64,000 nucleotides of DNA, from positions 558,001-622,000 of the forward strand of contig NC_082423.1 of the NCBI RefSeq assembly GCF_004011695.2. The letters run 5' to 3'. Under the pieces are notes generated by a model. The model did no database searches. It saw only the letters and a program-made list of their open reading frames with translations, and had not been told where the DNA came from. This document shows, one piece after another, positions 35,427 through 47,333 of the stretch. Position 1 is the first letter of the stretch. Every line of letters begins with the position of its first letter. This DNA comes from Ascochyta rabiei. Its lineage: Eukaryota > Ascomycota > Dothideomycetes > Pleosporales > Didymellaceae. The translations under genes were made by a program, and so were the position numbers.

Positions 35427-36017
35427 ACGTCTTCATGCGGAGTTGCAATGTAACATAGAGCACGTCTTCATCGGACACAATGGATAATGGCCCTGTCACA
35501 CAACTATGCTTTAAATGTGAAGTTCCTCAGCAATGAACACCTGAGATTTTTTTTTGGAACAGTTTTGTTTTGGTAAAAAGTGAGCAGGTTGTCTATCAAT
35601 GCTCATCACTTCTGCTACTAATTGGCGGCGGCGAAACAACAGGAAGCACTCAGGGTGAGTTAATTTATCTGGCTGCAGTCTGGTCACACACGAGTAATGG
35701 CCTACAGATGGCTCCGAGATGTCAAAAGTGCGTCTAAAATCTGATGTTTCAGTCTTCTCATGTCGAGCGAAGATTGTTTTCCATATTCCGACGGCACGTG
35801 GCATCCTGCACCATCAATGGGGTGGCGTATGGTTGGTTTGCGGATCGATACGCATGTACCCCCCACTTCGTGCGCTTCCCAACACTTATTTGCAGAAACT
35901 TCATACCTGTAAAGTGAGTGACACTGCGGACCCAAGACATTGTTGAAAGATGGAAATTTGATATCATCACTATATATTATTATTTCTGTGGATGCTCGAA
36001 CAAGCAGATTAACTTCT

Positions 36018-36155
36018 GGCCTAATGGCCCAATGGCAAGGCGCTTGACTACGACTCGTTCAATAATCAAGAGATTCCAGGTTGTAAGTAACTCCACCGCC
36101 CACGGTGCCCAAAGTTCAATTCCTAACAATGCCTCAGCGACCCCTGGTTAGGTCA
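36018..36155 (+). tRNA. tRNA-Arg(ACG) with an anticodon-loop intron and a spliceosomal-type intron in the T-loop
   Basis: The acceptor stem GGCCTAA (36018-36024) pairs with TTAGGTC (36148-36154), with one G.T pair. The D arm is GCC-CAATGGCAA-GGC (36027-36041), and the A box TGGCCCAATGG starts at 36025. The anticodon stem CTTGA/TCAAG (36043-36047, 36066-36070) carries ACG at 36050-36052. An 11-nt intron (36054-36064) sits at the usual position after base 37. The variable loop is AGATT. The T stem CCAGG (36076-36080) pairs with CCTGG (36143-36147), but the T-loop TTCGACC is split between T55 and C56 by 55 nt (36083-36137) running from GTAAGT to CTCAG. Without both inserts the tRNA is 72 nt with discriminator A. 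It reads CGU (and other CGN as inosine) codons. A T5 terminator follows. Confidence 0.85.
36083..36137 (+). other. 55-nt mRNA-type intron-like insert in the tRNA T-loop
   Basis: It starts GTAAGTAACT and ends AATGCCTCAG. A CTAAC branch-site match lies at 36123-36127, with its A 11 nt from the 3' G. Size and signals match the mRNA introns of neighbouring genes (49-59 nt, GTAAGT, CTAAC). It contains a perfect hairpin CACCG-CCCA-CGGTG (36094-36107) and a B-box-like GTTCAATTCC (36114-36123). Exact removal restores TTCGACC, so the boundaries are fixed by tRNA structure as well as by splice rules. Confidence 0.8.
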
Positions 36156-36167
36156 TGATAAGACATA

Positions 36168-36172
36168 TTTTT
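36168..36172 (+). terminator. Pol III T5 terminator
   Basis: Five T residues begin 13 nt after the discriminator base of the tRNA-Arg gene, a normal distance for Pol III termination. Confidence 0.75.
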
Positions 36173-38573
36173 GCGCCCGGACCTGCTGCACAGGGCTGTT
36201 TTTTTTTGACGGCACGCATCTTCTCGCCCTAACCATAGGCAATGCTCCTTGATGGACGCCCGTGTCTATCGCTTGATGCAACAGCACTGTTCTTTGCTAG
36301 AACCATTAGATTTCCAGGCGACTTCATGGTTTAGGTAAGCACAACCTTTCTGTTGCTATGTGATTTCGATCTTTGGGGTACTGGTTGAGGTTGTGTCGCG
36401 TACGGGTCTAAACAAAACGATATCCTTTGCAGAGATAATGCCTAGAGACCTCCAGCAGTGTTTTGACAAATGGTGGTGGAGCCCACATCGTGTCACACCA
36501 GTAACAGTAGCATTTTCGTGCAGGGGGCTAGCTCTTGTTCTTTCTGCAGGCTATGCAATGCACGACCACTAATCAAGCCATTGGTCGACTACGCCGGCAA
36601 AGCTCAGGTTTTCCTTCCAGCTCCGGCACTGCTTGGAGCACCTGTGCACCTGATCAGCTCTCAAGTCACCCGCTTACATTTTGCTCACGACAGGCAGTCT
36701 TGACACTGTGACATCATTCGTGAATTGTGCCACTAACGCCGATCGATATTGTTGTTATTTATGCTATACTTCGATTGACATTATACGAGACCGCTTCTGC
36801 AAACATCAGGAGCAGGTCACAAGCTCCTGTACTGGTGATACCGGAATGAAAGTATCTCTTTCTAAGCTGTCAGACCTCTGCGGTGCGCTTTGTGCACACA
36901 AACTGAATCCTCATTTGCGCGCCTGCAATGTCCGATTGTAGTACGGCGTCAACAGTGCAACAATCAGCGCGCCTACGACGGCACCCTACAGTTGGATCAA
37001 TTCACAACGGATGTCGAACTAACTTCCACCTATCGAATTATCCGGGGAAGTGATTGGAGTTCCCCGCTGGGCCTATCGATACAAGTGCCTGGTCCATGGA
37101 AGGCAGTTTAGCATACTGCTGGACACAAATCCAACTTTCGGTATTTGAGCCCGTGAGTGATTCGCTGCGGGAAACAGCAACAAAAAAGTCGTTGATTGTT
37201 TGGGTTTCAGTGCCGACGAATCACCTGCTAAAGAGTATGTCATATATGCCGTCAGAGGGGGACGTTTCTCATGCAGGGGATTACAAAAGTGTGAAAAATC
37301 TGACTCTGGCATTACGATCGGAGATCATATGATCCACTAACGGTTGCCACGCGTTGCTGGCTTTGCCTGTTATGCAGGGGACCGATGTCAAGTTGCTCTG
37401 TTGTGGATCATCGTGTGCACCTCATTCACGTTGGGCCGATCTGCACCTCCATCCCTAGAAGGCCGCTCCCACAATGTGCGCTACCAGTCTTTCAAGAAAG
37501 CTCTGCTTCTCTCGCCATGGATGAAAATCTGCAGTGCGTTGGGCCTGAGTGCCACTCTATCGGGCCAGCTTGTGTGATTGTTTTGCTCCAGGACGTCACG
37601 GTAACAACAACGGGTCTCTTTTCCCAAAGTTTCTGGTCGAGATGCCGATAACCTCCTGGTCTCCTCGAGAAGCATTGGTGCTTTGTATCCTGTTCAAGTG
37701 AGCTGAGCTCCGTTTAGGTCATACCATGCAGACACACAACATTGGGTTACGACCTCGAATGCCCAACTAGTGCATGCGAAAGTCCGCAGTATACAGTAAA
37801 ACTGCGTATATGGGGACCTTGTCTTGTAGTCGACACTCATATCACAACCTGCCCTTCATATCACTACCTGAGCAAGGCTACTCGCTATCAGTATCTTATC
37901 CATTCGATATAATTTTTATCAACGTCGACATGTCGTTCTGTTATCACAGTACTTCGATATCAACTTTGTCAAGTAAAACACCACCTCCATGCTACCTTTA
38001 CCATCCGCGCGCACTCAAGATCAGTACATGTACTGGCTGTGGAGGAAACCCGTACGTTGAAACTTGACAGTAGTGTTGCTAGGATAGCAAAGGCTGATGC
38101 CAAATCAGTGACCCACAAGTTGCATGTGATACTTGTTCAGGGTCAGGGGTGGTCCTCGAGAGGTGCATCGCTTGTGAAACATACCGTCACATAGTCCTTG
38201 TTGAGCGAGGATTGGCTAAACCTTGATGGGCCCACAAAAGTGGACAGCTCTACGTGCTTGCAGATTTGGAAGCGCTCTACTTTCTAACTCTCACGCCGAG
38301 CTAGTAGGCGTTGTCATAGAACAAAAGACATACGTGTAGAGAAGATTATGTCTTCCGTTTCGCAGCATGATTCAAATTTAAAGCAAACTCCTCATACCAC
38401 AATTCTGACTTAATGAAGTTCTTGCTGATAACTAGTACAGTTAATGCTTGCACTACGAATCTTAATTACACCATTACAACGTTGTACCGACATCCTAGCA
38501 AGTACTTGAAGAAATCCAATTCTCGAACGCCTGCGTCCAAACTATGACATACCTCGCACAGTGTCCTAGTAGG

Positions 38574-45531: not shown

Positions 45532-47333
45532 TTAATCATCTCCTCCACCACCGATGGGCCCGCTGACCTGCTTGGCCGCCTTCGCAGCAACAATGTCGTC
45601 GACCCTCAAGAGCAGGCAGGCGCTCTCGATGGCAGTCTTGATGCTCTGCTCCTTGACGGCGAGGGGCTCCCAGACACCGTAAGTACGCATGTCGACGACC
45701 TTTCCTGCATCGCCATCGATGCCCCAGAAGCTGCCGGTAGCCTTGCCATCCTCATATGCTTCTGCATGCTTTGCACGTAGTTGTGTGAGGACCTTGATAG
45801 GGCTGTTTCCTGAGTTCTGAATGATGGTGCGGGGAATAACCTCCATAGACTCGGCGATTGCCTTGTATGGCCACTGTGCAACACCCTCAATGAGCTTTGC
45901 TCTCCTCTCTAACCCGACAGCAATTGCCATCTCGGTCGCACCACCACCGGGGCACAGCTTGGGGTTCCAGATAACGTTCCTGGCGACACCCATAGCATCA
46001 TGCAGGTTGCGCTCGATCTCGTTCAGTATGTCCTTCGAGGGTCCGCGCAACAGAATCGTGCAGGCCTTAGGGTCCTTGCACTTTGTGAGGTAGGTGAAGT
46101 ATTCGTCGCCAAGCTTGGAGATTTCGAAAAGACCACACTGTGTACCAAGGTCGGAGGCGGTTGCGGCGAAGACGGAGTTGACGATGGTGGCCCCGGTGGC
46201 TCGTGCGATACGGTTGTTGTCTGTCTTGCGAACACGGCGAATAGCTGTGATGTCGGCCTTGACGAGGAAATGCTGTGCGAGATCTGTGTAATGTTAGCGA
46301 GACTCGCAGATACTTTAACTTGCATAGCTTACCGCTGACACCCTTCTCTGTGATGACGAGATCGGGCTTCAGAGCGATAATAGCGTCGCACATAGCCTTG
46401 ACTTGCTCCTCCTCGATCTGCAATATCCTGTTCCAGTCCTCCTCTTTGCTGACCTCGATGTTTGTCTGGCTTTCACCCTTCTTGTACTCCAGCGTGCAGT
46501 CCAGGAGCAAGACCTTGGGATTCTCGATCCTCCGCCTCATCTTGGGGTGTGTGATGTCCTTGTTGACCATGACGCCGTCCAAGACCTCACTGTCCTCGAT
46601 CTCACCACCAGGGATCTTCTCAATGCGTGCGTAGCGCTTGATGTCGACTTCCTTCTTGCCTCCCATCTCGGTCGAGACTGTGCGGACAGCCTTGAGTGCC
46701 AGGCCGCACATCAGCTTTGACCACCTCGAGACAAACTTTGTGCCAATCGACGAGTTGATGATTCTGTACATCTCCTCGTCGTTGTTTACGTCGACCTCGG
46801 TCGCAATCTCGTTGACAATCTCGAGAGCATCGGCCAAGGCCTTCTTGAAAGCTTGGATGACGACAACGGGGTGGATGTTGCGCTCGAGCTGGGGCAGGGC
46901 TTGTGCAAGGATCTCGCCAGCTGCCACCTGTCAGTGGTGTTCAAAGCTGTTGCTGCCAAATATGACCTACCCAAGATAATGACAGTGGTGGTGCCGTCAC
47001 CGACCTCCTCGTCTTGTGTCCGGCTAAGCTCAATCATGCTCTTTGCTGCGGGGTGTGCGACTTCGATTTCTCGGAGGATAGCGTGGCCGTCGTTGGTGAG
47101 GACGATGCCGCCCATGGGGTCGAGCAGCATCTTCAGCATGGCCTTGGGGCCCAGACATGACCGGATGATGTCTGCAACGGTCTTGGCTGCTGTGATGTTC
47201 GAGATCTGAGCTTTGCGACCGAACTGGCGCTCCCCACCAGGGGTCTGCGTATCTGCGGGGGTCTGTTAGGCGCTGCTGGTGGTAGCCAGGAAGGTCAGGC
47301 GGACATACTCATAACGACCACAGGCGCCTGCAT
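45532..47333 (-). CDS. CCT3: Chaperonin TRiC/CCT subunit gamma (CCT3)
   Basis: Four exons: 47333-47309, 47252-46971, 46920-46333 and 46283-45532, giving 548 aa, the normal length. Introns of 56, 50 and 49 nt are GT-AG; for the second, acceptor GTGGCAG at 46921 gives VIILAGEILAQALPQ. Group II chaperonin landmarks are RSCLGPKAMLKMLLDPMGGI, TNDGHAILREIEVAHPAAK and the ATPase motif VGDGTTTVII. Gamma-specific text includes VMVNKDITHPKMRRRIENPK, ARNVIWNPKLCPGGGATEMA and SFWGIDGDAGKVVDMRTYGV. The C-terminus is Gly-rich (SGPIGGGGDD). As part of the cytosolic hexadecameric ring it folds actin and tubulin. The gene is divergent from the ORF at 48067. Confidence 0.97.

Follow-up and report, generated by a model that had tools for sequence, protein, structure and literature searches.

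Removal of introns from nuclear tRNAs is ascribed solely to the tRNA endonuclease, and inserts in the T arm of eukaryotic tRNAs are usually set aside as pseudogenes. GT-AG introns that are thought to be removed by the spliceosome are found in a fungal Pol III gene, that of U6 in fission yeast and others, and spliceosomal introns also interrupt a small structured RNA in the case of the fungal U3 snoRNA. According to one account, no small structured RNAs other than U3 and U6 are known to be frequent hosts of introns (PMC5832005). T-arm introns alongside an anticodon intron in one gene are described for archaea, red algae and nucleomorphs (PMC4090602, PMC3978253). According to PMC4090602, D- and T-arm inserts in eukaryotes mostly occur in one of many synonymous tRNA genes and are supposed to mark pseudogenes, with the algae excepted. 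Introner-like elements are an example of recent intron gain in the Dothideomycetes, the same fungal class (PMC4457414).

The tRNA-Arg(ACG) gene described here resembles the U6 case in having a GT-AG insert in a fungal Pol III gene, but its host RNA is a tRNA and not a spliceosomal RNA, and its precursor has an endonuclease intron as well. All six copies that we found are interrupted, whereas this is true for one of the two U6 genes found in the same genome. From the U3 introns the insert differs in the class of its host RNA, in that it interrupts a tRNA and carries a promoter element. The tRNA introns of archaea, red algae and nucleomorphs are tied to a bulge-helix-bulge motif and the endonuclease, whereas the Arg insert has invariant spliceosomal signals and shows the motif in none of the six copies, although this is a weak test. 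Unlike introner-like elements, the Arg insert is no genome repeat, and an insert of the same kind in a tRNA-Leu gene was found once. The gene also departs from the supposed-pseudogene pattern, as the insert is present in all copies found. Searches of the open-access literature, most of them on several terms combined, turned up no description of a nuclear tRNA gene with a spliceosomal intron, which is weak evidence of absence. We consider it very likely that this is a working tRNA-Arg(ACG) gene, transcribed by Pol III, with a T-loop intron that would be removed by the spliceosome and a 37/38 intron that would be removed by the tRNA endonuclease.

The tRNA-Arg(ACG) gene, its anticodon intron and its T-loop insert

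The gene lies on the forward strand of the window, by which we mean the whole 64,000-nucleotide stretch of DNA analysed. Its parts are as follows.

35971..35978, + strand: TATA-like sequence, about -47 to -45 relative to the tRNA start
36018..36053, + strand: exon 1, with the acceptor 5' strand, the D arm and the anticodon through position 37; same in 6/6 copies
36025..36035, + strand: A box TGGCCCAATGG, unbroken, read from the sequence
36054..36064, + strand: anticodon-loop intron of the ordinary type at 37/38, CTCGTTCAATA, 11 nt
36065..36082, + strand: exon 2, with position 38, the anticodon stem 3' strand, the variable loop, the T stem 5' strand, T54 and T55; same in 6/6 copies
36083..36137, + strand: T-loop insert of 55 nt between T55 and C56, a putative mRNA-type intron; 12/12 signal columns invariant in six copies, remainder diverged
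36083-36088, 36123-36127 and 36135-36137, + strand: insert signals GTAAGT, CTAAC (branch A at 36126) and CAG
36114..36123, + strand: B-box sequence GTTCAATTCC within the insert, overlapping the branch site; GTTCRAWTCC in 6/6 copies
36138..36155, + strand: exon 3, from C56 to position 72 (36138-36154), and discriminator A73 (36155); same in 6/6 copies
36168..36172, + strand: T5 run, a Pol III terminator by its sequence

The first-pass annotation had described a tRNA-Arg(ACG) with an 11-nt anticodon intron, a 55-nt insert between T55 and C56 and a T5 run, and each of these features is found where it had placed them. The same holds for the insert's GTAAGT start, its CTAAC with 11 nt after the branch A and its CAG end. 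When 36054-36064 and 36083-36137 are taken out of 36018-36155, a 72-nt tRNA-Arg(ACG) remains, discriminator A included. Once the outer halves of the T arm are joined, the T stem pairs 5/5 and the T-loop reads UUCGACC. Among the GT..AG pairs 40-120 nt apart just one restores the T arm, and it is the same pair in all six copies. The annotation was also right that the cloverleaf is whole only without the insert: ARAGORN calls none of the six unspliced copies, and all six as tRNA when the insert is removed. Four of these are named Arg(ACG); the copies L003 and L005 are assigned a different anticodon, as the program puts their anticodon intron elsewhere, and in L005 this intron has 10 nt instead of 11. 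On the unedited window neither Rfam, at its gathering score, nor ARAGORN reports a tRNA. Once both introns are taken out, the locus has a whole cloverleaf and T-loop and an ACG anticodon, the sequence features expected of a functional tRNA-Arg(ACG).

A canonical tRNA intron lies at position 37/38. The insert lies at 55/56, and a separate intron of 10-11 nt occupies 37/38. GT-AG ends, a consensus 5' site and a branch at the usual distance, as in U2-type introns, are present in 6/6 copies. Given that the tRNA fixes its ends, one insert would have GTAAGT, CTNAC near its end and YAG by chance with a probability of about 3e-7, considering base composition only. For comparison we used the mRNA introns of the CCT3 gene in the window, three introns and thus a small sample:

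47253-47308, - strand: CCT3 intron, 56 nt, 13 nt after the branch A
46921-46970, - strand: CCT3 intron, 50 nt, 10 nt after the branch A
46284-46332, - strand: CCT3 intron, 49 nt, 10 nt after the branch A

To place the intron ends, we aligned the exon frames to CCT3 chains of solved structure and required a continuous reading frame. Among the best 120 of 7887 matches, the CCT3 protein shares 98% identity with its Nothophoma quercina counterpart and 93-94% with those of the next named Pleosporales, which makes a Didymellaceae fungus the most likely host. The 54-55 nt of the insert fall within the 49-56 nt of these introns and the signals are alike, in agreement with the resemblance to nearby mRNA introns that had been noticed before. 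Intron-like motifs number 31 in the window and 18 when its sequence is reversed, too weak a difference for use.

Six split copies under constraint

The assembly has 40.9 Mb in 23 contigs. Six tRNA-Arg(ACG) loci were found in it by DNA search, on six contigs (C19, C7, C5, C15, C4 and C8), and every one is interrupted by the insert at T55/C56. An uninterrupted T arm of this tRNA occurs nowhere in the genome with up to 3 mismatches allowed, while the same type of search with the 3' exon, as a positive control, returns exactly six places. A general tRNA search, in which 63 of 1588 candidates were scored, gave nuclear hits that ARAGORN reads as Arg(CCT) (L019, L022 and, uncertainly, L067), Arg(TCT) (L032) and Arg(TCG) (L070), and none of its nuclear hits as Arg(ACG). 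With this coverage, a strongly diverged uninterrupted Arg(ACG) gene may have been missed. Contig C23 looks mitochondrial from its dense set of tRNAs, which includes an Arg(ACG) of its own. Long canonical introns were common among the hits seen, as for example the anticodon introns of about 32-35 nt that ARAGORN places in L071 and L073. A query of eight human-type tRNAs matched only six tRNA-Ile-like places, and such queries are insensitive here. No relatives were found in viral and bacterial/archaeal collections, as expected for a fungus. A genome pattern search for T-loop inserts of like form returned the six Arg loci and four other places; going by just the letters that matched, we do not take these four for tRNAs.

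The mature tRNA is identical at 72/72 positions in the six copies, as expected under purifying selection at six diverged loci. In the alignment of the inserts 24/55 columns are invariant, and these include all 12 splice-signal columns (GTAAGT, CT-AC and AG; P = 6e-6 given 24 of 55). The intronic B box has 8/10 invariant columns, one of them common with the branch site, the variable two being R and W. Outside the signals and the B box 5/34 columns are invariant. Correspondingly, two copies differ on average at none of the signal positions, at 11% of the B-box positions, at 44% of the remaining insert and nowhere in the exons; at the rate of the remaining insert at least 85 exon changes would be expected and 0 are seen. 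Three inserts have 54 nt and three 55 nt, all with 11 nt after the branch A. The branch site is CTNAC in all six (CTTAC in one) and the 3' site is YAG in all six (TAG in one). Gene conversion is a poor account of identical exons around diverged introns, which argues that all copies were maintained as working tRNAs with their inserts. This pattern probably means selection on a working, spliced tRNA and not decay. The annotation had asked for the other copies in the genome, and would have taken a random insert in an already decayed tRNA, or intact copies elsewhere together with a lack of spliced product, as the sign of a pseudogene. What we find is identical exons, invariant signals and six split copies, with no uninterrupted nuclear copy.

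The insert breaks the B box of the tRNA (GGTT/CGACCCC). A B-box sequence, GTTCRAWTCC, is present inside each of the six inserts, overlapping the branch site, and two of the six have A for G at the R position. The intron of the Schizosaccharomyces U6 gene is said, after Frendewey et al. in 1990, to carry a B-box match, so the intronic B box of the Arg gene would be the arrangement reported for fission yeast. As in a type 2 Pol III gene, there is an A box in exon 1, a B-box sequence in 6/6 inserts, which may be the one used, and a T5-T9 run in 6/6 copies that begins 12-19 nt past the gene. TATA[AT] is found at -40 to -50 in 5/6 copies within the 70 nt upstream that were searched.

Further interrupted Pol III genes and possible origins of the inserts

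A tRNA-Leu(CAG) gene at C12:346910-347048 (L076), the weakest and a partial hit of the general tRNA search, has its D arm interrupted at 10/11 by an insert of 55 nt (L076 21-75). Its signals are GTAAGC...CTAAC...CAG, with 11 nt after the branch A. Spliced, the gene is identical (81/81) to an uninterrupted Leu(CAG) on C4 (L057), the only other copy from the DNA search, so that one of the two found is interrupted. Run with no intron option, ARAGORN calls the C12 gene only after removal of the insert; with introns allowed it misreads the whole gene as Leu(AAG). The gene has its own TATA-like sequence and T6, and its A box, counting the last bases of the intron, is CAGCCGAGCGG, which is close to the A-box consensus. 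From its sequence, the Leu insert is a second, independent case of a GT-AG insert in a tRNA; fifteen other tRNA hits show none (0/15). The Leu gene ends in GTTCA/CCA/TTTC, with an encoded CCA right after the discriminator. Such an end would be consistent with copying from a CCA-tailed RNA, and chance is possible (1 in 64). We do not claim kinship of the Leu and Arg inserts. With the splice signals held fixed and the rest shuffled, the outcome differs among the six Arg inserts: the shuffles reaching the score number 9 for L003, 16 for L001, 150 for L002, 775 for L004, 1153 for L006 and 1458 for L005, each of 2000, and 2/2000 in a true-pair control of L002 against L006.

Two U6 genes were found when 47 of 2491 candidates were scored. 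The one on C14 (L053) is intronless and the one on C9 (L054, C9:1076009-1076174 and on) has two GT-AG inserts of 66 and 53 nt, with 10 and 12 nt after the likely branch A, which the Arg inserts resemble in size and signals. The spliced C9 gene is identical to that on C14 (101/101). B-box-like sequences, GGTTCGAATCT and CGTTCGATCTG, stand soon after the T-run of both U6 genes (L053, L082), as in a downstream B-box promoter. Two matches to fungal U3 snoRNA, each of 221 nt, lie at C15:234233-234453 and C2:2005446-2005666. Large inserts are absent from the 35 full-model matches to 5S rRNA, of about 114-122 nt (47 of 1875 candidates scored).

Decayed pieces of tRNA-Arg that lack the T-loop insert lie about 80-180 nt downstream of three copies, the one in the window, L002 and L003. 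The piece in the window was found by local alignment:

36271..36336, + strand: decayed piece resembling spliced tRNA-Arg positions 2-70, without both introns and without T54 T55

For these three the local-alignment score is reached by 0/2000 dinucleotide shuffles. The downstream piece of L004 is weak (47/2000), and L005 and L006 show none (427 and 1935 of 2000 shuffles reach the score). The pieces may be remains of an uninterrupted tandem copy and thus of the state before the insert.

An origin from an introner, which had been suggested, is not borne out. Introners or mobile repeats would have near-identical copies in many genes, and the stretch in the window matches only the six Arg loci. The exon flank GGTT/CGAC differs from the AG/GT proto-splice site. 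As the host is a tRNA and not a spliceosomal RNA, reverse splicing near the catalytic centre fails to explain the Arg insert. The insert may have arisen by reverse splicing into the tRNA or by a partial duplication that brought the B box along.

Alternative readings and the proposed maturation pathway

It is possible to imagine the insert as a non-canonical tRNA intron that is cut by the tRNA endonuclease and joined by tRNA ligase, its GT-AG look being secondary. T-arm introns of this type are known in archaea, nucleomorphs and Cyanidioschyzon (PMC4090602), and an endonuclease intron is already present at 37/38 of the same gene. Such cutting does not require GTAAGT, CTNAC and YAG as invariant columns, however, and the Leu insert has the same signals at a different site. 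The 4-bp central helix of a bulge-helix-bulge is formed at the T-loop in 0/6 copies (at best 3/4 pairs in four copies and 2/4 in two), a weak test, as the ordinary 37/38 introns pass it in 1/6. We hold this explanation to be improbable. That the insert is retained, with its own TTCRAWT as the T-loop of an enlarged tRNA, seems to us the least credible reading of all: the T-loop-like sequence is there in 6/6 copies, but by eye no five-pair T stem surrounds it, ARAGORN calls none of the six unspliced forms as tRNA, and the outer halves of the T arm are perfectly conserved and pair 5/5 once joined.

The six copies could also be pseudogenes or a tRNA-derived repeat, with the working Arg(ACG) in a gap or too diverged to be found. 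The unedited genes are called neither by ARAGORN nor by Rfam, the 3' flank is partly common to 4/6 copies, and the general search scored 63 of 1588 candidates. Dead copies, however, would not keep exons and splice signals alone, and here 72/72 exon positions are identical though introns and flanks have diverged, with own terminators in 6/6 copies and invariant splice signals. This makes the pseudogene explanation very improbable.

The reading as an mRNA-type intron in a Pol III gene, which the annotation had put forward, thus draws on six split copies of six, identical exons and invariant signals; spliceosomal removal would follow from the signals. Most likely, the spliceosome would remove the T-loop insert and the tRNA endonuclease the anticodon intron. 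Two observations count against easy splicing. Structure prediction for the precursor leaves both the 5' site and the AG largely paired (mean unpaired probability 0.24-0.48 for the 5' site, 0.09-0.50 for the AG and 0.48-0.95 for the branch). The other is that Pol III transcripts have no cap, and the cap aids recognition of the first intron. An RNAalifold consensus of the six precursors pairs exon with insert bases, from which we conclude nothing.

For this gene we propose the following pathway, inferring from the sequence that it is transcribed, that the spliceosome removes the insert, that the intronic B box is used, and in what order the steps occur. Pol III would transcribe tRNA-Arg(ACG) from the A box and a B box that now lies inside the T-loop intron. 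The spliceosome would excise the GT-AG intron of 54-55 nt first (5' site GUAAGU, branch CUNAC, 3' site YAG), which would restore the T-loop UUCGACC and allow the tRNA to fold. End processing and the tRNA endonuclease would act next, with the 37/38 intron cut and the halves ligated. We place the T-loop intron first since a folded T arm is required for end processing and for the endonuclease. As all six nuclear copies found are split, making cytosolic Arg(ACG) would take both splicing machines.

It is likely, in our judgement, that spliceosomal introns entered several nuclear tRNA genes of this lineage and that the split Arg(ACG) replaced every uninterrupted nuclear copy, so that this essential cytosolic tRNA would need the spliceosome for its T-loop and the endonuclease for its anticodon loop, with its Pol III promoter now in an intron. 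The split form would make tRNA finders miss Arg(ACG), as ARAGORN did. With Leu(CAG) and U6 each present in a single genome as an interrupted and an otherwise identical uninterrupted copy, the gain of introns by Pol III genes can be tested directly. If our reading is true, uncapped Pol III transcripts besides U6 can be substrates of the spliceosome, and the gene offers a natural system for the order of two splicing machines on one short RNA. Decoding of CGC and CGT requires the ACG (inosine) anticodon, and the CCT3 gene contains 11 CGC and 4 CGT codons. The translation of CGC and CGT codons would then be tied to the spliceosome.
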